64,000 nucleotides of DNA from assembly GCA_018449715.1 (NCBI GenBank), contig JAAVVA010000001.1:1-64000 (forward strand), given 5' to 3'. Of the stretch, positions 54,190 through 64,000 are shown piece by piece (positions within the stretch are counted from its first letter, which is position 1; the number at the start of each line of letters is the position of its first letter). The stretch comes from Acidobacteriaceae bacterium dw_441 (GTDB taxonomy: Bacteria; Acidobacteriota; Terriglobia; Terriglobales; Acidobacteriaceae). Made by a program: the position numbers and the translations under genes. The notes beneath the pieces are model-generated. The model saw only the letters and a program-made list of their open reading frames with translations, did not search any database and was not told where the DNA came from.

Positions 54190-54495
54190 TTAGTGAACTG
54201 GTCCGCTTCCCTGGGGAACCTGCTCGAGGGCGATGGTTCCGAAGGTCTGCTCGTACTGTGCAAGGTTGTTGCCGAGGATGTTGAGAAGGGCCTTGGCCTG
54301 CTGCGGGCTGAGATAGATGCCCTGGAAGTTCTTGACGTTCAGCTCTCCGGCATTCTCCTGGCTCATGGTGCCGAAGACGAGCATGAAGTCCCACACGGAC
54401 ATGCGGACCTGAACGCTGTTGGCATAACCTTCGCGGTAGTCGGAGGTGGAGGAGATGTTGAGCTGCGGTTCAGCGTTCGGTTTCTGCTGATTCAT
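54190..54495 (-). CDS. DUF3467 protein
   Basis: A 101-residue protein. YANSVQVRMSVWDFMLVFG and the C-terminal LSPQQAKALLNILGNNLAQYEQTFG match DUF3467, whose role is unknown. Its start lies 23 nt from the 3' end of the tRNA-Leu fragment, so it is the last native gene before the island. It probably heads the transcription unit that continues into the glycosyltransferase. Confidence 0.85.
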   Translation of the reverse strand: MNQQKPNAEPQLNISSTSDYREGYANSVQVRMSVWDFMLVFGTMSQENAGELNVKNFQGIYLSPQQAKALLNILGNNLAQYEQTFGTIALEQVPQGSGPVH

Positions 54496-54517: not shown

Positions 54518-54577
54518 TGGTGCGAAAGGGGGGACTTGAACCCCCACGGGTTACCCCGCCAGATCCTAAGTCTGGTG
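54518..54577 (-). other. Truncated tRNA-Leu(TAG) 3' fragment (attR-like)
   Basis: Read on the - strand, the fragment contains the anticodon arm CCAGACTTAGGATCTGG (anticodon TAG), a class II variable arm (CGGGGTAACCCGT), a T-arm GGGGGTTCAAGTCCCCC and the acceptor 3' strand CTTTCGCACCA with encoded CCA. Upstream of CACCAGA the expected D-arm and 5' acceptor are replaced by unrelated AT-rich DNA. It thus matches the duplicated tRNA end left by an integrase that recombines in the anticodon arm. Confidence 0.8.
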
Positions 54578-54580
54578 GTT

Positions 54581-54676
54581 TGTTTCTCTATCTTCTCAAA
54601 AAAATCAATCACTTGAGAAAGTCGAGAAAGGCAGGTGGCAGTTTGGGTGGCACTTGCATTTCTCAAAACTGAGAAA
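54581..54676. repeat. GAGAAA/TTTCTC half-site cluster beside attR
   Basis: At least six copies of TTTCTC or GAGAAA occur in 95 nt: near 54583, 54592, 54614, 54623, 54659 and 54671. The last two form the palindrome TTTCTCAAAACTGAGAAA. Two are direct repeats about 10 bp apart (TTGAGAAAG, TCGAGAAAG). Integrases and excisionases bind such arm-type sites next to the core. Confidence 0.45.
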
Positions 54677-54889
54677 CTTCGTTCCACCACTTTCTAAGAC
54701 GGGAACCCCCTATTCAATGTGCTTAGTTTACATCGTGGTCGTTATCTGCACTCGTCCAGCGCTATCCGTCTCCCTCCAGCGCCAGAGTCGCCGCAGGAAA
54801 AAGGCCTCTTCTGGCATTGCGATAAGTGAACAGCCGGGACAACAGCACTCAACGGGTGGCATCCTGAATGAAGCATTTCTTTACAGCCT
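54677..54889. other. Gene-free start of the island
   Basis: Continues the 312-nt gene-free stretch to the right of the tRNA fragment. It contains no recognisable gene, only short frames without conserved features. Confidence 0.5.
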
Positions 54890-55431
54890 ATGCCCACACT
54901 GACAGATGTAATCGATGTTCTATCGTCGCGCCGCCGTCTCCAGGAAGCGGCACGTGCAGAGTTCACCGCACACGGACCGGACGGTACGACAATGGCGGGA
55001 CCGCAGCGCTCGCGGGAATTAACAAGGAGCGGCTCTACAACTACTTCGGGGATAAACGACTTCTCTTCGAGACCGTGCTCACAGAAGAGTTGGAAAAGCT
55101 CGCTGTTTCCTTGGGAGCAAATGCTCCCGGTCTGGAGGATGTCGGCGAATATACGGGATGCATCTTCGACTATCACGCGAGGCATCCGCAGCTGGTCCGA
55201 CTTTTGCTCTGGGAGGGGCTCTCAGATGGTCTGGTTGTGAACGAGGCAACCCGTACCGCTCACTACCAGCGCACTGTGGCGATGTTCGCCGCCGCACAAC
55301 GAGACGGCGTACTCAATGACGATCTGGATCCGGCAAAGCTGGTCTTCCCCCCGTCCCTGAGAAGCGTCAGCTTGAATGGCCGGCAGGTGCCCTCTACCGC
55401 TTGGACGCTCTGCGTGTCGTTGCGATGCTGA
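54890..55431 (+). pseudogene. TetR-family regulator, frameshifted and C-terminally broken
   Basis: The first frame gives MPTLTDVIDVLSSRRRLQEA and AEFTAHGPDGTTMAG, the start of a TetR DNA-binding domain. After 54996-55001 the reading continues in another frame as AALAGINKERLYNYFGDKRLLF and LVRLLLWEGLSDGLVVNEATR. One base appears lost in ATGGCGGGACC. Beyond the C6 run at 55347 the sequence no longer resembles a TetR C-terminus. The regulator is therefore probably inactive. Confidence 0.75.
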
Positions 55432-55587
55432 TGGCTCCCTCAGCCTTAACCGTCTGAAGGAAGCTTGTCCAATTGACGAACGGGGGCATCTCCGAACTGA
55501 TGAAAACGAGCGATGTTGACGGTATCCGGCACGTGTGTCTCTCTGTGAGTCCCATGATGTGGTTGAAAACGGTAGCGACTTCGTTCC

Positions 55588-56547
55588 TCAGTCATGGTTC
55601 GGATGGAAGTGACGGACGACTGCATCCCAGAACTCCCGTTGGCATCGCCGGGCGATTTCTGTCTGCGCGCCCCAGGCAGTGAAGCCATGGGAAGCTCCGG
55701 GATAGATGTGCAGCTCTGTAGGGACACCATCGCGAATGAGTCGTTGAGCGAATCGAAGGTTTTCTCCAATGAACAGGTCTACGTCGCCTACGCTGATGAA
55801 CGTTGCAGGAACTCCTGCGAGAACCTCGACTCTTCCTGGCGATGCGTAGACCGGAACATCCGCTCCAACAGGCCTCTCGCCTAACACGGCATTCCAACAG
55901 AAGCCGTTGCTCGCGCGATCCCACACGAATTCGCCGGAGAAAGGCATCGGTGTAGGTTCCCCTGACGTTCCGGTCCGGTCGTCCAGCATCGGGAACATCA
56001 GGAACTGTGCCGAAAGCGGAGTTTTCCCACGATCACGAGTAAGCAGACAAAGCCCTGCGGAGAGAGCGCCTCCTCCGCTTTCTCCAGCAACGGCAATACG
56101 TTCCCTCGGCACACCCAGAGTGTCCGCCTCGGCATGTATCCATCTGAGAGCTGCGTAACAATCCTCCAATCCGGCAGGATATGGCTCCTCCGGGGCCAGA
56201 CGATATGCAACAGCAACGACGACGCAGCTTGCCTGTTGCGCTATATAACGGTTGGGCGCATCGTTCATCTCTGGCACCCCCATCACCATCCCACCGCCAT
56301 GAATCCATAACAGAGCCCCTGTGGGGGCCTTGTTCTCCGGGCGATACACGATCACGCGTACCTGCCGTCCATCGCCAGCGTCAATAAAGTGTTCCTCAGA
56401 CCGGATCTCAGGAGCGTCCGGAGCACTTAGCTTCCAGCCGATCATGGCCTCTCGCATCTCGGTCAGGGTTGCTGCGGATGTTTCAAGGGAAGGCATCTGC
56501 TTGAGGATCTCCAGCAGTTGCGGGTCAATCAGTTGTTCACTTTTCAC
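55588..56547 (-). CDS. Alpha/beta hydrolase, HSL-type esterase
   Basis: A 319-residue carboxylesterase. The oxyanion-hole HGGGMVMG, the nucleophile elbow GESGGGALSAGL, the acidic residue in SVGDVDLFIGENL and the histidine in YPGASHGFTAWG form the HSL-family layout. GTG start with GGAAGAAG upstream. It is divergent from a TetR gene, which probably represses it through the inverted repeat in between. Confidence 0.9.
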   Translation of the reverse strand: MKSEQLIDPQLLEILKQMPSLETSAATLTEMREAMIGWKLSAPDAPEIRSEEHFIDAGDGRQVRVIVYRPENKAPTGALLWIHGGGMVMGVPEMNDAPNRYIAQQASCVVVAVAYRLAPEEPYPAGLEDCYAALRWIHAEADTLGVPRERIAVAGESGGGALSAGLCLLTRDRGKTPLSAQFLMFPMLDDRTGTSGEPTPMPFSGEFVWDRASNGFCWNAVLGERPVGADVPVYASPGRVEVLAGVPATFISVGDVDLFIGENLRFAQRLIRDGVPTELHIYPGASHGFTAWGAQTEIARRCQREFWDAVVRHFHPNHD

Positions 56548-56585
56548 GGGGGCTTCTTCCTTCGAGGAAAATCAGGGGCGTGCAT

Positions 56586-56610
56586 TATTTGGAGCGTTCT
56601 CTCCTAAATA
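56586..56610. promoter_or_regulatory. Candidate TetR operator between esterase and TetR genes
   Basis: TATTTGGAG and CTCCTAAATA are inverted around CGTTCT with a single one-base offset. The element lies in the 141-nt divergent region, about 40 nt from the esterase start. Size and symmetry suit a TetR dimer. Confidence 0.45.
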
Positions 56611-56688
56611 GATGAGAGCCAGATTCTATGGATTCACAAGTCGGCATCTTTTTTGGGTGCGATCGCTCTAATAATGAGGAGCAAGTGA

Positions 56689-57303
56689 ATGGCGACACGA
56701 GGAAGACCTAGATCCTTCAACGAAGACGATGCGCTTGACCTTGCGATGCGGGTCTTCTGGGAGCGCGGCTACGAGGCGGCGGGGGTCGACGACCTTGCGC
56801 AAGCGATGGGCATCAGCATGTCGAGTTTCTACTCCACCTTCGGCGATAAAGAGGCTTTGTTTCTTGCCTCCCTCAAGAAGTACGAGACTGAGAAACGTGG
56901 TTATGCGAGTACGATTCTTGAGCGCAGCGAGCCTGCCGCTGTCACATTTCAAAACCTGTTTAATGAGGCTGCCCATCAACTCACGCGTGCGGACCAGCCA
57001 CGGGGCTGCATGCTCACTCTCGCTCTTCATAACTGCTCGCCGGAGTTGGAACCTCTTCGGAACCATCTCAACGAAAGGCGTGCGGCAACAGTTGATGCCT
57101 TTGAGGTGCGTCTGAAAGCGGCTCGAAAATCCCGTGAACTCGATGACGGAACTGATGTACGTGGACTCGCGTGTTTTTTTGCGAACACATTGCAAGGAAT
57201 GTCGCTCCAAGCGCGCGCAGGGGCCACCCGCAAGGATTTGATCAAAATTGGTCGATGGGCAATGAAGGCATGGCCATGCAGGAGCAATGGTTACGATCAT
57301 TAA
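56689..57303 (+). CDS. TetR-family transcriptional regulator
   Basis: A 204-residue TetR/AcrR repressor. The HTH (about 10-57) reads FNEDDALDLAMRVFWERGYE, then VDDLAQAMGISMSSFYSTFGDKEALF. The C-terminal ligand domain has GCMLTLALHNCSPELEPLRNHL and two cysteines at about residues 105 and 112. GAGGAGCAAGTGA precedes the ATG. It is divergent from the esterase gene and is its likely local repressor. Confidence 0.92.
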   Translation: MATRGRPRSFNEDDALDLAMRVFWERGYEAAGVDDLAQAMGISMSSFYSTFGDKEALFLASLKKYETEKRGYASTILERSEPAAVTFQNLFNEAAHQLTRADQPRGCMLTLALHNCSPELEPLRNHLNERRAATVDAFEVRLKAARKSRELDDGTDVRGLACFFANTLQGMSLQARAGATRKDLIKIGRWAMKAWPCRSNGYDH

Positions 57304-57562
57304 TCACTATCCGTCATTCATACCTTCACCGTCCCGGGTGTCCTAAACGGGCCGCAAACAGGCCAGACGAAAACTCGGTTATCCGAACGGACGGAAAAGG
57401 CACCGCTTCCTCGTTCTGGCTTTGTATGACTCTGAAATTAGCTCGGACGTTTTTGCCTCGACGGGGAAAAACGTCCGAGCTGTATATGTGCATTGCCCTG
57501 TTGGCGACAAATGGAGAAAGGGTGGCACGGAATTTGATAGCGTAGGGACAAAGACCTGCGCC
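57304..57562. other. Intergenic region with a 15-bp perfect inverted repeat
   Basis: No gene is seen. AGCTCGGACGTTTTT (57440-57454) and AAAAACGTCCGAGCT (57467-57481) are exact complements around GCCTCGACGGGG. No T-tract follows on either side outside the stem, so its role is open: operator, transposon remnant or RNA hairpin. Confidence 0.5.
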
Positions 57563-57863
57563 TCACCCGGCGGTTTCCACCTTCCGCGTCCGCATAATAG
57601 ACGGCGCACCTACCAGGAACCACACAGCGATCAGCGAGTCGAAGATCATGCAGCCGAGGGAAGAGGTTCGCATAAACGGCCAGATGGGATGACCTATGAG
57701 TTGATGGGGCAAGTCCCATCCTGCATGCATCAGCCAGGCAACGCCTATGAATCGGTACGACCGCAGGCCAAGGTAGACCACCGGAATCGCCAGCACTGGA
57801 TAGATCAGCTCCCAAACGCCAAAGCCTCCGCCAATATAGGCGAAGACCGCGCCTGCTGCTCAT
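57563..57863 (-). pseudogene. DUF6010-like membrane protein, N-terminally truncated
   Basis: On the - strand an open frame reads AGAVFAYIGGGFGVWELIYP, then FIGVAWLMHAGWDLPHQLIG and FMRTSSLGCMIFDSLIAVWFL, resembling the C-terminal two thirds of a DUF6010-type membrane protein. Two stop codons (TGA TGA) interrupt it upstream of 57863, where the first helices should be. The fragment lacks a ribosome-binding site at its first ATG (57796). Confidence 0.5.
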
Positions 57864-57866
57864 CAG

Positions 57867-58056
57867 ATGGTGAAGCAATATCTGGAACAAGCCTGATTTT
57901 TGACAATCCCTAACAGATGCTCACCTCACGTCACCCACTCAGACTGTCTTTGATCAACTCCCTTTAGCTAGAAGACACTTGCTGGAAGCCGGATGGCTAG
58001 ATCGTATATCCATCAAGGCCAAGACTTGCTTGATGAATCCGCATGTACGGTTCGCA
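57867..58056. other. Gene-free spacer; possible group II intron fragment
   Basis: No gene is visible. CCGCATGTACGGTTCG (58039-58054) resembles the 3' half of a group II intron domain V. AAGCCGGATGGC around 57989-58001 recalls the 5' half, but the two do not form a canonical domain V. The match is weak. Confidence 0.25.
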
Positions 58057-58959
58057 TCACCTTATAAAAAACTCGATCGGCAGAGACAACTCCATCACAT
58101 CAGGCAGGTTAGATGGGATGGAGGGAAGCGGCTGCGCCCTCAAGACAGTAGCCTGAGCTTCCTTATCGAGTAGGGAGAATCCAGAGGCGCGTTCAATCGC
58201 GGACGACAATACATGCCCCGTCCGATCCAGACGGAACCGGACGTAGACGACGCCTTCTTCACGCCGCATTCGAGAAGCGGCCGGATAGCGTCGGAATTGA
58301 CCGAGACGAGCAAGCACCTCTCCCTCCCACGTAGCCTTCGCGCCCGAAGACGCGCCTTCGGGCGCAGGAGTTGAAGGTGGGGATGCTGCCTCTGAGGCGT
58401 TCTGAGATGAAGACGGATGCCTATCTTGCTCTGATGCTGCAGGCCTTCCTCTTGGGCCTGCTAGGGCGACCCGTGCTGCCGGGGCGTTTAAAAAGGAAGG
58501 CAGCGCGGAGGTCGCCTGAGGCATTGGAGGCGCACCGATGGGCAGAAGCAGGGAAGGCTCCTGAGTTACTCTCCGAGGGAGACGTCTTTGCTGACGATTA
58601 CGCTCCGGCGATGGCTTGGGTGCAGTCTTTTCCGCGACCGCCATCGCTGGAGCTGCCGGCGCGGCCAGTGTGATCGCATTGATCGCCACACTGGCCGTTG
58701 GTGGTCTCACCTGCTGATGTAGGTGGATTGCAAATGTCATAAGGACGAGCAGATGCAGAGCAATGGCAACGATGTAGGTTGCGGAACGGCGCCGTGGTGG
58801 ACGGAGCGCGTCGAAGGCCAGCAACGCCGGGCAATACGTTGAGCCGGTGAGGCCTGCCGTCAGTTCACAACTCCTCTCAGCCCTGCTGCCACGAACTTCG
58901 TCAATGCTTCGATCCAGTAACTCAGCCACACCCTTATCCTTTTTGGGCTCCATCGACAT
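58057..58959 (-). CDS. tonB: TonB-family energy-transducing protein
   Basis: About 300 residues (ATG 58959, or 58953). A membrane anchor (YIVAIALHLLVLMTFAIHL) near residue 65 is followed by a Pro/Ala/Ser-rich periplasmic spacer and a TonB C-terminal domain (RYPAASRMRREEGVVYVRFRLD, IERASGFSLLDKEA). It overlaps the 3' end of the heme oxygenase gene by about 26 nt, so it is translated with it. A dedicated TonB for the adjacent receptor is the obvious reading. No exbB or exbD is adjacent. Confidence 0.88.
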   Translation of the reverse strand: MSMEPKKDKGVAELLDRSIDEVRGSRAERSCELTAGLTGSTYCPALLAFDALRPPRRRSATYIVAIALHLLVLMTFAIHLHQQVRPPTASVAINAITLAAPAAPAMAVAEKTAPKPSPERNRQQRRLPRRVTQEPSLLLPIGAPPMPQATSALPSFLNAPAARVALAGPRGRPAASEQDRHPSSSQNASEAASPPSTPAPEGASSGAKATWEGEVLARLGQFRRYPAASRMRREEGVVYVRFRLDRTGHVLSSAIERASGFSLLDKEAQATVLRAQPLPSIPSNLPDVMELSLPIEFFIR

Positions 58960-59545
58960 ATTGCCGTGTGAGAGCGGCAGCGTGGTCGAATGCCGCCAAC
59001 GCTCCAACGGTTGCACGAGCCTTTTCCTCATCGTTGAAAGGCTGCGTAGAGATTGTCTGCGCGAAGATACGCCAGGCAGTTCCCGGGCCTTCAGCGGGGC
59101 CTGCGAGATGGCGGGCGCCGAAGCAGTCGCTCAGCCCAAACGCGGAGGCGCGACGAAACAGGCTGGCAGCGCCCAATCGCGAGCCCTCTAAAACAAAGAG
59201 CCATCCGACGTTGGACGCCAGGTCGGGAAGCGGAAGAGCGGGAGTGTCCTCTTCGCTCTGCGGAAGCGTAAGACCGAGATCAGCCATATCCTGCTCGACG
59301 AGATGGAGGCGAGAGCGGGACTCCAGATCAGGTAGGAGCTCTTTCAGCGAGGCATCATGATAGAGCGGTTCGAGATCCCGCTGCAGGCAATACTGCATTA
59401 TGAGGAGACGGCTATAGCTCTCGCGGTCCGAGAAAAGATCGCTGGCCATGATTAAGTTGTCCAACTTCTCGTGTGCGGGCAGGGTCGCCGTCCGCATCTG
59501 AGAGATGATATCTATGGTTTGTGTGGCATCGAGTGCGGTGGTCAT
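58934..59545 (-). CDS. Biliverdin-producing heme oxygenase
   Basis: A 203-residue heme oxygenase, which opens heme to biliverdin, CO and Fe2+. The proximal His is in ATLPAHEKLDNLIM. The distal helix region has LFVLEGSRLGAASLFRRA with its conserved Gly, and the fold length is normal. ATG 59545 has TGGAGATCTA upstream; a longer frame to 59596 overlaps the receptor end and is not preferred. It lies 31 nt after the receptor stop. Confidence 0.9.
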   Translation of the reverse strand: MTTALDATQTIDIISQMRTATLPAHEKLDNLIMASDLFSDRESYSRLLIMQYCLQRDLEPLYHDASLKELLPDLESRSRLHLVEQDMADLGLTLPQSEEDTPALPLPDLASNVGWLFVLEGSRLGAASLFRRASAFGLSDCFGARHLAGPAEGPGTAWRIFAQTISTQPFNDEEKARATVGALAAFDHAAALTRQYVDGAQKG

Positions 59546-59576
59546 TAGATCTCCATTCAAAAGGGTTTGCAAAGAG

Positions 59577-62210
59577 TTAAAACTTGAACGTCGCATTCAG
59601 GCGAACAATGCGTCCCGGCGAGGGCAAAAAGGCGATGGAAAGAGGGTCGAGATAATAGCGGTTGCCAAGGTTTTCGGCGCTTGCACCAAGATCGAAGTGA
59701 TTCACCACTTTGTACGAGGCATAAGCATTCATGATGATGGCCTTGGGCCACGAGGCCGGGGGAACGTAGGGATGATTCGGATCGGCATTCGATGCGGCCT
59801 GGATGGGCGCGCGGTCGCTCCAGTAATTGATGGTGAACCCTGCCGTCAGCGCATCGTGCAGCAGGCTTGTACCGATGGTTCCGTTGCCTGCGTAGGAGGG
59901 AGGCACGTAGCCGCCGCCGTAGTCGTTACTCAGCGCGGCCCCTGAGCAGGGTTGGCCCTTCATGCAGTAGGTGATGTAGGTGTACTTGGTGTAGCCGCCC
60001 TGCACGAACAGTTGCGGAATTCCATACGTGCCCTGTAATTCAACTCCTCGATATTCCGCCTTGTCCAGGTTGATCCAACTGTACGGAAGTGTCCCGTTTC
60101 CTTGAAGACTCTCTCGTCCGATGTAGTTACCGTACCGGTTCGAAAAGTATGCAACCTTCAACTGCGCACGGTCTTTCACGGTCAGGAGATTGGAGCGGTT
60201 CACGTTCCCGCCCACTTCAAAGTTGTCGGAGGTCTCCGGCTTCAAGTCGGGATTGGGGAGAACGAGCGTGGTGAACTGCCAGTATGCTTCGCGCAAGGCA
60301 GGGGGACGCCAGCCGCGCGCATACGTGCCAAAGAACTGGATGCCTTGCCACGGCTCTGCGGTGAGGGCGACAGTGGGATTCACGCGATTGCCGCTTTTCT
60401 CGGGAAGAGAAGCATAGTAGGCATGTCCGTTCTCGTGATAGCGGTCGACGCGGAAACTTCCGTCGAAGATGAGCCACGGCCTGATCCGGTAGTTGGCCTG
60501 GGCAAACAGACTTCCGACGTAGCGCTTTCCTGAAGGGTCGCCAATCGGATACGAAGTATTCGATTGAGTCACGATCGGAACCTGTCCGGTTGCGTTCTCC
60601 TGCGAGAAGGAGGCACCGTACTTCAGATTGAGTTGCCCGAACTTTGTTCGCAGGTCTGAAGTGTTCCATATCTCGGTTCCCACCGAGACGACCGGGTAGT
60701 TCAGGTTGTAGTCGACCGTCGATCCGGTACTTTGATACTGCGGGCTGTGATGGGTCTGCAGGCGTGTACTCCAAAGATTGGTACGGAGATGGATGAGATG
60801 GCTGTTCTCCGGGAAGTACCCGTACCGGATAGAACCGGTATGCGTTCTGGTGACGGCAAGATCTCCCTGTACTGTCGGCAAAAGGCCGCTGTAGATCAGG
60901 AAGTAGTCATTCAACTCACCATGCTTGTCGTAGTAGTTCATGTAGCCCAGTTCAAGCGAATGTCCGTTGCCGAACTGCGTCCTCACCTTCGCCATCGCGG
61001 AGAGCTCATCCTGTGACGTATTGAAGGTTTCGGTATTGGGAGGGATTGAGGAGTAGATAGTTCCCATGCCCGTGCCGGCAGGGCCAGGAGAGGTTCCTAT
61101 CCAGGACTGGGGCAGCCGATCTCCAGCGAAGTAGTTTCCTGTTTTCCGCCGGGCCACACCTATGATGATGTTGTAGCGGTCCAGGATCGCTCCAGCCGTC
61201 CCGCTCCAGCGAAATCCATCGCCATTGAATGCAGAAGGATTGCCAATGCGGGGGAACTGCGCCTCCAACTGTGGTTCCTTCGAGCCGTTTGCGATTCCTC
61301 CGTGTAGCTGGATTCCGTACTTGCGCCCCTCTGAAACAACGTCGGTCGCATCAAGCGTTCGCATGTTGACCACACCACCCATCGCTCCTGCGCCGAACTG
61401 TCCGCCGCTCGGCCCCTTGGAGATGTCCACGCCGCTGATGAAGTCCGGGTCGATATACACGCTGCTGGTGTTGCCGTGATAGCCGATGTACTGCGAGTTC
61501 GTCTGTTGCGTCCCGTCCACCAGAACATTGACGCGGTTCATTCCCTGCAGGCCACGGATGTTGATATTGAGTCCCGAGCTGTTGCGGTTGCCCGCCGAGA
61601 CAACTCCGGTTGCATTCTTGAAGATGTCACCAATCGTAGTCGGTGGGACGCGGTTGATCTGTTCTTGCGAGACCTCTCCAGTTGAGCCCGGAGTCGTGTA
61701 CACCTTGTGTTCCGCCGCGCGATTCAAGCTCCGATTGCCATATTGATCCACGTCTCCAAAGAACCCGCCGGCCCCAGAACCTTCGCCTTCCCCAACGCCC
61801 TGCACGCGCAAGGGGCCGAGTTGCGTGACTCCGGCTGCTGTTTGGGGGGCTTCTTCCAACCGTGCAGTGTGGGGGCCGGTGAACCGGAAGGTCAAACCGG
61901 TACCTGCAAGCAGCTTACTCAACGCCTGGGATACGGACATAGAGCCGTCGATGGCTGAGGAAGACGCGCCCGAAGGAAACGGCTTCCCATACAGCAGGTC
62001 CACGCCGCTCTTCCGCGTATAGGCGGTGAGCGCCAAACCTAGCGGCTGCGCCGGAATATGAAACTCCTCGATCTGCGGAGAGGCAAGATTCTGGGAGTGG
62101 CAGATCGCCGCCCCGCAAATCAGCAGTAACACCACGGCGCATTTCAATATCGCCAGCCAAATGAAGATCTTCTTGTATCGCTGCACAGCACCCCTCGGGT
62201 CCTTGATCAT
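59577..62210 (-). CDS. TonB-dependent heme/hemoglobin-type receptor with STN domain
   Basis: An 877-residue outer-membrane receptor. After the signal segment an STN (secretin/TonB N-terminal) domain (about 38-115; EFHIPAQPLGLALTAYTRKSG, SMSVSQALSKLLAGTG) indicates cell-surface signalling to a FecR. The plug has DIFKNATGVVSAGNRNSSG and GQFGAGAMGGVVNMRTL. The barrel contains the NPDL motif of heme receptors (LPNPDLKPETSDNFEVGG) and ends NATFKF. Promoter P1 lies just upstream. No strong Shine-Dalgarno is seen before ATG 62210. Confidence 0.93.
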   Translation of the reverse strand: MIKDPRGAVQRYKKIFIWLAILKCAVVLLLICGAAICHSQNLASPQIEEFHIPAQPLGLALTAYTRKSGVDLLYGKPFPSGASSSAIDGSMSVSQALSKLLAGTGLTFRFTGPHTARLEEAPQTAAGVTQLGPLRVQGVGEGEGSGAGGFFGDVDQYGNRSLNRAAEHKVYTTPGSTGEVSQEQINRVPPTTIGDIFKNATGVVSAGNRNSSGLNINIRGLQGMNRVNVLVDGTQQTNSQYIGYHGNTSSVYIDPDFISGVDISKGPSGGQFGAGAMGGVVNMRTLDATDVVSEGRKYGIQLHGGIANGSKEPQLEAQFPRIGNPSAFNGDGFRWSGTAGAILDRYNIIIGVARRKTGNYFAGDRLPQSWIGTSPGPAGTGMGTIYSSIPPNTETFNTSQDELSAMAKVRTQFGNGHSLELGYMNYYDKHGELNDYFLIYSGLLPTVQGDLAVTRTHTGSIRYGYFPENSHLIHLRTNLWSTRLQTHHSPQYQSTGSTVDYNLNYPVVSVGTEIWNTSDLRTKFGQLNLKYGASFSQENATGQVPIVTQSNTSYPIGDPSGKRYVGSLFAQANYRIRPWLIFDGSFRVDRYHENGHAYYASLPEKSGNRVNPTVALTAEPWQGIQFFGTYARGWRPPALREAYWQFTTLVLPNPDLKPETSDNFEVGGNVNRSNLLTVKDRAQLKVAYFSNRYGNYIGRESLQGNGTLPYSWINLDKAEYRGVELQGTYGIPQLFVQGGYTKYTYITYCMKGQPCSGAALSNDYGGGYVPPSYAGNGTIGTSLLHDALTAGFTINYWSDRAPIQAASNADPNHPYVPPASWPKAIIMNAYASYKVVNHFDLGASAENLGNRYYLDPLSIAFLPSPGRIVRLNATFKF

Positions 62211-62226
62211 GAGGGAGTCGTTTGTG

Positions 62227-62299
62227 CGAATGCCCTCTGCTGGTGAAGACAGAGGGCAAGTCGATTTGTCAGGGTGAGTCCGGAATTTTTTTAAGAATG
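62227..62299 (-). promoter_or_regulatory. ECF-type promoter P1 of the heme receptor
   Basis: On the - strand CACCCTGACAAA (62276-62265), 13 nt, then TGTCTTC (62251-62245). The flanking block, from an A7 tract upstream to CAGAGGGCATTCG downstream, is shared with P2. The -10-like GTC and spacing of about 17 nt from CCTGAC are typical of extracytoplasmic-function sigma promoters. Confidence 0.65.
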
Positions 62300-62304
62300 C
62301 CGAT

Positions 62305-63327
62305 CTAGGCCGGATAGATGACTGTCAGTAGGGGAGTGATCTCGACCGTCTTGACGGGGAGGATAGAGGGCAAGTCCTGTAATCCCTCCGATATATGAGC
62401 AAGGTTGATCAGCATCGTGAGAGGCAGAGGCGCGAGCTTTGCATCTGCTAGAAGAGTCTTTCCAGTTCTCCACTGGTTGAGAGTATGGAGAGCCTCGCTT
62501 AGTGGGACGGAGATAAACTCGAGCCGTCCGGAGCGCCAGGCCAGCAATGGCGCGGCAAGAGGTTCGATCTTTCCTTGTCCCCACTTGTCATAATGAACGA
62601 CCTGCCCAGCTTCTATCTCCAACTGCGAATGGCCCGACACAACGCGGACCGCGTGTTCCGTGACAGCCAGCCGGGCCGCATCCTTCATGGTCGCCACACT
62701 GAACTCCGTACCCAGTGCGGTCGCCTCTCCCGCTTTTGACTCGACGATGAAGGGACGGGCCAGGCTATCCCTCGCAACCTTGAAATATGCCTCACCTTCA
62801 TATAAGTGAACTCTGCGTTCGTGTCCGTTGAAAGTCGGAGAGAGGGCCGTCTTTGTTGACAGCTCTACGCTGGAGCCATCCGGCAGATTGACGGTCCGTC
62901 GCTCTCCAATGCCTGTCCGATATTGAGCGGTTGGAAACCGGTCCACGAAATACATCAAGCCACTCGTGGCAGTTAGCCCTGCTGCCCCGGCTATCGCAGC
63001 CTTACGAACGAACTGGCGCCGCGTATAGCGACGATATACCTGCTGCGTTGCTGGCGCCTCAAGACTGACTTCCCAGAGACGCTTCACTTCGGCATAAGTC
63101 TCCTGATGACGCACGTCGCTCCGGAGCCAATCATCGAACCTTGCATGAAGCTCCTGGGCGTCAGGCTCACCCTTTAATTGGACGAACCACTGCATCGCTT
63201 CCGCCTGGAGCGGATCCATTTGCTCAAGAAGCTCTTCCGTCGTCGGCAATGTCTTGCCGGGCCGTTGTTCCATCGTCCGTTGCTCGTTCTCTCTCAATTC
63301 TTCTCGCCTTTGCGCAGGAAAATCCAA
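62305..63327 (-). CDS. fecR: FecR-family anti-sigma/signal transducer
   Basis: A 340-residue FecR. The N-terminal DUF4880 segment (about 40-90; AMQWFVQLKGEPDAQELHARF, DWLRSDVRHQETYAEVKRLW) faces the cytoplasm and binds the sigma factor. A membrane helix (KAAIAGAAGLTATSGLMYFV) follows, then the periplasmic FecR domain (GERRTVNLPDGSSVELSTKT, LYEGEAYFKVARDS). AGGAGG lies 10 nt before TTG 63327; ATG 63273 would shorten it by 18 residues. A sigma gene is usually upstream of fecR; none is found here. Confidence 0.9.
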   Translation of the reverse strand: MDFPAQRREELRENEQRTMEQRPGKTLPTTEELLEQMDPLQAEAMQWFVQLKGEPDAQELHARFDDWLRSDVRHQETYAEVKRLWEVSLEAPATQQVYRRYTRRQFVRKAAIAGAAGLTATSGLMYFVDRFPTAQYRTGIGERRTVNLPDGSSVELSTKTALSPTFNGHERRVHLYEGEAYFKVARDSLARPFIVESKAGEATALGTEFSVATMKDAARLAVTEHAVRVVSGHSQLEIEAGQVVHYDKWGQGKIEPLAAPLLAWRSGRLEFISVPLSEALHTLNQWRTGKTLLADAKLAPLPLTMLINLAHISEGLQDLPSILPVKTVEITPLLTVIYPA

Positions 63328-63349
63328 TGCTGGACGACCTCCTATATGA

Positions 63350-63381
63350 GAAGACTGCCCGTCATCGACTTTGTCAGGGTG
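63350..63381 (-). promoter_or_regulatory. ECF-type promoter P3 of fecR
   Basis: On the - strand CACCCTGACAAA (63381-63370), 13 nt, then AGTCTTC (63356-63350). Transcription would start about 15 nt before the fecR TTG. It is divergent from P2, with 34 nt between the two -35 boxes. Confidence 0.65.
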
Positions 63382-63391
63382 CCTCCAAAAA

Positions 63392-63465
63392 CACTCTCAA
63401 AAAAATCTCGATGTTCACCCTGACAAACCCCGCAAAACCCTGTCTTCCCCATCAGAGGGCATTCG
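63392..63465 (+). promoter_or_regulatory. ECF-type promoter P2 of the NHL-repeat gene
   Basis: On the + strand CACCCTGACAAA (63416-63427), 13 nt, then TGTCTTC (63441-63447). From CACTCTCAAAAAAA upstream to CAGAGGGCATTCG downstream (63453-63465) it matches P1 at about two thirds or more of positions. It lies 66 nt before the NHL gene start. Confidence 0.65.
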
Positions 63466-63513
63466 TGATCGAACTGCCCACTCCAAGAAATACCACCTGA
63501 AGGGGCACGCCGG

Positions 63514-64000
63514 ATGTTTCAACTCAATTTCGTTATGCGCCACATGCGCAGTGTATTGCTGATCTGCCTGCTCAGCGGTTTTGCTCATGCACAGGGCACT
63601 CAACCTGTGGCAACGCTGACTCCTGGCATCATCTCCACATACGCCGGCAGTGGAGACGCATCCAATTCCGGCGACGGTGGCCCCGCCACAAGCGCAGGTA
63701 TTGGCGGCCTCTTAAATCTCGCTGTCGACAAACAGAACAATCTCTACCTCGCCATCAATAGCAATTCCGCAGCCGGCGTCGCCTATGTGAGCAAAATCGA
63801 CCCGAAGACGGGCGTTATTACCACCATCGCAGGGAATGCTACCCCTGATCTATCGGGCGATGGTGGCCCGGCGATCGACGCAGGCCTCGGTAGCCTCGGT
63901 GCGATGACGACCGATGCTGCGGGTAACCTTTACCTCACCAGCTACGATACTGTTACGCAAGCTAACGAGATTCGTAAGATCGATCACGTAACGGGCATTA
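63514..64000 (+). CDS. Exported NHL-repeat protein (truncated by window end)
   Basis: The first 162 residues of a gene that runs past the window. It has a signal peptide (RSVLLICLLSGFAHAQ, from the third Met) and NHL/beta-propeller-type repeats: IISTYAGSGDASNSGDGGPA, LNLAVDKQNNLYLAI, KIDPKTGVITTIAGN and LSGDGGPAIDAG. GAAGGGGCACGCC precedes the ATG. Promoter P2 places it in the same regulon as fecR and the heme receptor. Such propellers may bind ligands or other surface proteins; the function is unknown. Confidence 0.82.
   Translation, partial: MFQLNFVMRHMRSVLLICLLSGFAHAQGTQPVATLTPGIISTYAGSGDASNSGDGGPATSAGIGGLLNLAVDKQNNLYLAINSNSAAGVAYVSKIDPKTGVITTIAGNATPDLSGDGGPAIDAGLGSLGAMTTDAAGNLYLTSYDTVTQANEIRKIDHVTGI

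Follow-up and report, generated by a model that had tools for sequence, protein, structure and literature searches.

Classical islands at tRNA sites rebuild the tRNA, usually its 3' part. A different logic, termed tRNA-dependent lysogeny, has been described in actinobacteriophages (Guerrero-Bustamante and Hatfull 2024, PMC10865867): the passages of that paper on integration concern a tyrosine integrase, an attB site inside a host tRNA gene and a short core by which the tRNA is not restored, and they add that related phages with longer cores rebuild their tRNA and that the tRNA of phage Gaia lies downstream of Int. For the Rhizobium phage vTRX32-1 group, the corresponding passages (PMC8631192) give a 12-bp motif in tRNA-Leu as attB and a phage tRNA-Leu without this motif, which its authors read as a replacement and as protection from re-integration. 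Phage-related sequences with tRNA genes are treated in the relevant part of a study on Sinorhizobium meliloti (PMC11476347), where the host tRNA is said to be substituted by an element-borne one and a table includes a Leu(UAG) case. Searches of open-licence PMC papers listed none that describes this element in Acidobacteria.

Here we examine a locus of the soil-dwelling Acidobacteriaceae bacterium dw_441 in which, as the overall best explanation and with high confidence, an island has split the native tRNA-Leu(UAG) gene without rebuilding it and carries a substitute. In what follows, N stands for the native type of tRNA-Leu(UAG) and R for the type that replaces it.

The split gene and its two junctions

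The window comprises bases 1-64000 of contig C1 of the dw_441 genome (4.92 Mb, 10 contigs). On its minus strand stands the 3' part of a tRNA-Leu(UAG) whose 5' half is absent there; the 60 nt run from the anticodon stem (CCAGA-CTTAGGA-TCTGG, anticodon TAG) through the variable arm, the T arm and the acceptor 3' strand to the encoded CCA. Neither ARAGORN nor Rfam (gathering score) called a tRNA in the 64-kb window, as expected because only half a gene stands there. The 60 nt are a real tRNA remnant rather than a chance resemblance, since in 40 of the 61 genus relatives the corresponding site, near the same DUF3467 gene, is occupied by a complete N-type tRNA-Leu(TAG). The features of the window are as follows.

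54190-54495, minus strand: host DUF3467 gene (PF11950), left flank, marker of the native locus
54518-54577, minus strand: 3' part of N at the left island junction, from sequence and relatives
54560-54577, minus strand: 18-bp core, an exact repeat also present at the right junction beyond the window (C1:130319-130336)
54578-64000, no strand: left part of the island, continuing to C1:130318, delimited by the junctions
54635-54656, minus strand: pair of GTGGCA-type repeats beside the core, seen in the sequence, with a similar pair at C1:130181-130202
58057-63327, minus strand: cargo genes for FecR, a TonB-dependent receptor, heme oxygenase and TonB

The initial annotation had taken the fragment for an island boundary with the crossover in the anticodon arm of a tRNA gene and had placed the rest of the island past position 64000, and the junctions bear this out. 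The exact 18-bp core, which is the anticodon arm, is present at the two junctions only, the far one starting at C1:130319; there is no third copy in the dw_441 genome, and simple arithmetic gives about 1e-4 chance occurrences of an 18-mer at this genome size. Outward of the right core the 5' half of N survives in degraded form (C1:130319 to about 130361, minus strand), displaced and oriented as expected of one opened gene. Between the halves the island measures 75.7 kb (C1:54578-130318); its GC content varies along its length, being below that of the left flank and near that of the right. The GTGGCA-type repeat pairs resemble integrase arm sites and are possible candidates for this role. Just inside the left end, at 54868-55431, a remnant-looking TetR-like ORF was noticed by eye.

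Neither junction rebuilds a tRNA: none is called in the window, and R is the sole tRNA called in C1:120001-140000. The joined halves of N (85 nt) were considered as a working gene in dw_441 and rejected, as the sequence is not read as a tRNA. It might also be proposed that the two halves, both of which survive in the chromosome, cooperate as a split tRNA, but with a decayed 5' half, a joined sequence that is not read as a tRNA and an intact R at hand this is hardly conceivable.

The replacement tRNA, the integrase and the cargo

Near the other end the initial annotation had expected a tyrosine integrase and an intact tRNA-Leu(TAG), and both are present, in the company of two further small genes.

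C1:128066-128149, minus strand: R, tRNA-Leu(UAG) (ARAGORN TAG; Rfam tRNA, 52.4 bits)
C1:128185 to about 129344, minus strand: tyrosine integrase in two frames (PF00589, 98.6 bits against a cut-off of 27.1)
C1:129250-129561, minus strand: excisionase-like HTH_17 ORF (26.1 bits, just below the cut-off of 27)
C1:129671-130258, minus strand: ORF of a small 195-aa protein, no Pfam match

It had further been predicted that the functional tRNA would stand at the far end, end in the same 60 nt and so restore the target, and on these points the prediction failed. R lies inside the island, 2.2 kb from the right junction, and does not end in the same 60 nt (best match 84% over 43 nt). The genome holds neither a second copy of the 60 nt nor an intact N; the annotation had regarded the lack of a second copy as fatal to its reading, and this lack is literally what was found, but the island is nevertheless real. 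R differs from N in the acceptor stem, the D loop and the anticodon arm, with 5 of 14 positions deviating from the core, and was for these differences rejected as a restored target. The classical model, in which attP restores the target and the intact far-end tRNA bears the identical 3' part, can point to the integrase and the intact tRNA-Leu(TAG) near the far end; it is refuted by an R without the 60 nt and by a separate decayed 5' half beyond R, and we give it almost no credence. N was destroyed and replaced by a different, island-borne isoacceptor.

Can dw_441 do without its island? Rfam found 48 tRNA genes in the genome, all 48 of which were read by ARAGORN, and the one Leu(TAG) among them is R. 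As a general rule, CUA codons should depend on tRNA-Leu(UAG). Because R is the only tRNA-Leu(UAG) found in the genome, the bacterium probably cannot dispense with the island. Two other observations were made in the course of this census. The genome has two near-identical unusual tRNA genes of 74-75 nt (C1:788383-788454 and C1:214405-214475; L074 and L077), one with anticodon UCA, which ARAGORN names SeC although it is short, and the other with a damaged anticodon loop. No tRNA-Trp was read among the 48 genes and a loose tRNA-Trp pattern found nothing in dw_441; this gene may lie in an assembly gap or have been missed.

The integrase frame ends 35 bp ahead of R. It is frameshifted, and therefore activity cannot be claimed for the dw_441 copy. 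A promoter scan returned no promoter-like site ahead of R in dw_441 or in Acidicapsa (see below). Of about 50 ORFs in the island, 30 cargo proteins were scanned against Pfam, and they comprise iron and heme uptake, sigma factors, two-component and other regulators, oxidoreductases, OMP_b-brl_4 receptors and phosphoesterases; conjugation or phage structural families were absent from these 30.

In the favoured explanation, a mobile island would have inserted itself into N, within the anticodon arm, by means of the tyrosine integrase that it encodes. Because the shared core is only 18 bp, no tRNA would have been rebuilt at either junction, and the halves of N would have been left 75.7 kb apart. 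The island would bring its own R directly behind the integrase gene, and R should escape the integrase because its anticodon arm differs. Initially, precise excision could return N, and Acidicapsa still looks so; once the fragments and the integrase had decayed, loss of the island would mean loss of the tRNA. The split of N and its replacement are established by the sequence. We infer that the integrase was responsible for the insertion, that R is expressed, cannot be dispensed with and is immune to the integrase, and that there is now no way back.

Empty sites, recurrence and decay in other genomes

The joined flanks were searched in 62 genus genomes, dw_441 included, and 59 of the 61 relatives gave the DUF3467 locus. 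The empty site for which the initial annotation had suggested a search in relatives is there, as an intact N between the same flanks. The 17-nt anticodon arm is identical in 36 of the 40 relatives with complete N (the exceptions are G028, G043, G049 and G055), and a further 14 of the 61 have R near DUF3467 at the native locus with no island. At this locus Edaphobacter aggregans DSM 19364 (G002) shows a broken N plus R, and Acidobacteriaceae bacterium TAA 166 (G023) and G005 a broken N; in G033 and G050 no tRNA stands near DUF3467 and N lies elsewhere, and G042 and G045 gave no DUF3467 match. The tRNA is usually at most 0.3 kb from DUF3467, with larger distances in G061 (0.9 kb) and G034 (3.9 kb). 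As a separate observation, the native-locus tRNA-Leu(TAG) of G049 (L116) has the body of the tRNA-Leu(GAG) of G026 (L126), as if the anticodon had been switched.

On the right flank, the amine oxidase (C1:135615) was matched in 47 of the 62 genomes, dw_441 included. N is separated from it by 1.2, 0.64 and 3.1 kb in G017, G036 and G024, respectively (83-89% identity), and by 3.6 and 3.9 kb in G047 and G049 (67-73% identity); in E. aggregans its distance to the displaced 5' half is 2.8 kb. In the remaining genomes, TAA 166 among them, it is farther away or elsewhere. Both flanks are near an intact N in relatives, and therefore the flanks once met at an intact N.

An integrase or its remnant directly precedes R in six genomes, namely dw_441, E. 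aggregans, TAA 166, Acidicapsa dinghuensis 4GSKX (G062/G229, L181), the MAG JOPF046 (G063/G335, L204) and G005. Both halves of N are present in dw_441, in Acidicapsa, where they lie about 267 kb apart on one 967-kb contig (near 568.2 and 835.4 kb), and in E. aggregans, there on two contigs of an assembly with 350 contigs and 8% contamination. TAA 166 retains the 3' half only, a search of the 10 kb upstream of R having found no 5' half. The native locus of G005 has a decayed 3' half behind what looks by eye like the left end of an element, with R on another contig; in JOPF046 neither half was found. The right end of the element aligns among dw_441, Acidicapsa and E. aggregans, and the left end among dw_441, TAA 166 and Acidicapsa by BLAST, E. 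aggregans joining only in the MAFFT alignment.

These data bear on two other accounts of the locus. A chromosomal rearrangement could have separated the halves of N with no integrase involved, R being an unrelated second gene, and the disturbed surroundings in TAA 166 and G005 would suit it; however, the 18-bp core at both ends, ends that align across genera, the integrase directly before R in six genomes and both flanks near N in G017, G036 and G024 make it very improbable. The second account is a composite origin: N would have been split by a small element made up of the integrase and R, and the bulk of the 73.5 kb that now separates R from the 3' half would have arrived later by other means; the replacement of the tRNA would be unchanged and the moved unit smaller. 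It fits E. aggregans, where only about 230 bp separate R and the 3' half, and it fits the DNA similarity of the dw_441 island to the others, which in the stretches compared is confined to the ends, the small gene, the integrase and R, as well as the uneven GC content and the large Acidicapsa span. Against it, the left end, the right end and the integrase-R part recur together in Acidicapsa, where a large stretch likewise separates R from the 3' half, and dw_441 has no additional core copy; we consider such an origin unlikely.

Returning to insertion of the island as a whole, the copies can be arranged by their state of preservation. Acidicapsa has a stop-free integrase frame and joined halves that are called tRNA-Leu(TAG), and from its sequence the insertion looks reversible. 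In E. aggregans the 5' half is intact (40 nt), the 3' half is one base short and the integrase frame is broken near its end; its joined halves are still called tRNA-Leu(TAG) by ARAGORN, and lock-in is therefore not general. TAA 166 and G005 have decayed 3' halves and integrase remnants. The gradient from Acidicapsa through E. aggregans and dw_441 to TAA 166 and G005 is read as ageing, in which single frameshifts could be sequencing errors. The insertions of dw_441 and TAA 166 may be a single event, as the two are sisters in the locus tree.

This tree was built by FastTree from DUF3467 and its neighbour (59 sequences, midpoint root), with G130 and G203 dropped for low coverage and G033, G042, G045, G050 and G061 not entered. 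It places 13 of the 14 genomes with resident R in one clade, which also holds G037 with N, and G040 apart. R is not purely an island gene, because these 14 relatives have it at the native locus with no island. Across the 398 family genomes searched, an R-like match (E 1e-20 or better) was found in 37; matches of at least 96% fall in six genera, the remaining ones being at 86-89%, and outside the genus R is near a DUF3467 gene in G203, G130, G174 and G085. Integrase remnants beside the resident R were sought in all 14 relatives, with one weak match, in G040 (E 0.002 to 0.006). It is a tentative and rather doubtful proposal that islands permanently replaced an essential universal tRNA in whole lineages, so that R at the DUF3467 locus (the 14 relatives and at least three other genera) would be a domesticated remnant of past insertions. 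On the one hand, the tree fits one old replacement; on the other hand, it fits equally an old native allele that was picked up by islands. If domestication is true, horizontal takeover of a core translation gene would proceed through a cut in the native copy, the provision of a substitute and decay.

Related integrases and comparison with known systems

The integrase of Granulicella aggregans M8UP14 (G035, hereafter G. aggregans) is 51% identical to that of dw_441 and belongs to an element of 15.7 kb that includes a phage capsid gene (PF05065). A complete N with a promoter-like site in front lies beside this integrase and a spare 39-nt 5' half at the far end, and in this arrangement the element restores the tRNA from the 5' side. 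Within the element (L145, C1:863119-878924 of G. aggregans) portal, protease and small terminase genes were recognised by eye, with no obvious tail genes; we presume by comparison that it may be a capsid-coding satellite. Among 29 relatives of the integrase in named genomes, 24 are followed by a tRNA on the same strand (Leu(TAG) 10, Ser(CGA) 8, Arg(CCT) 4, Leu(TAA) 1, Thr(CGT) 1), the gap being 41-225 nt in 23 of the 24 measured. For one of these 23, L196, the fetched stretch also held another 5' half of that tRNA, many of the stretches being short. Integrase remnants also stand ahead of N in G006, G053, G024 and G049. Viral contigs gave one integrase match, at 25%, and no exact match to 25 nt of R, and the best listed phage integrases are 29% identical to that of G. 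aggregans.

In dw_441 itself, tyrosine recombinase genes were noticed close to tRNA-Val(CAC), Ala(GGC), Asp(GTC) and Leu(CAA) (C4:118130, C7:434920, C8:317262 and C1:885635, respectively), and because these genes adjoin tRNAs, other tRNA-site elements are likely in this genome.

The replacement logic has been published for phages; what appears to be new is its use by a large Acidobacteriota island in which no phage genes were found among the 30 cargo proteins scanned, together with an apparent lock-in. A mechanism tested in phages would extend to chromosomal islands of large size whose cargo is ordinary metabolism. If an island holds the sole copy of an essential tRNA, it is not easily lost and would retain its cargo with no need of a toxin-antitoxin pair. 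The aftermath may pass through stages that are apparently reversible (Acidicapsa), decayed (dw_441, TAA 166, G005) and perhaps end in complete takeover (R at the native locus), which would offer a concrete route for the horizontal replacement of a core tRNA gene. A search for islands that relies on a matching tRNA end at the opposite side would overlook elements of this kind.

With classical islands the dw_441 island has in common the tRNA target, the tyrosine integrase and a tRNA fragment at one end, but classical islands rebuild the tRNA and this one rebuilds nothing. The vTRX32-1 group differs in that it consists of podovirus-type Rhizobium phages of 42-45 kb, and the passages concerned (PMC8631192) describe no long-term decay; the S. 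meliloti sequences, as presented in the relevant part of PMC11476347, are phage-related and belong to another phylum. The closest likeness is to the actinobacteriophages as the integration passages of PMC10865867 portray them: an element-encoded integrase, insertion inside a host tRNA gene and a short core, and the same logic by which the element carries the tRNA, here R, of which no other host Leu(UAG) copy was found. In contrast to those phages, whose function was tested, we deal with a 75.7-kb Acidobacteriota island known from its sequence, without phage genes among the 30 cargo proteins searched, with a core of 18 bp, with target fragments and an integrase that have decayed, and with related integrases that, as in G. 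aggregans, rebuild from the 5' side.
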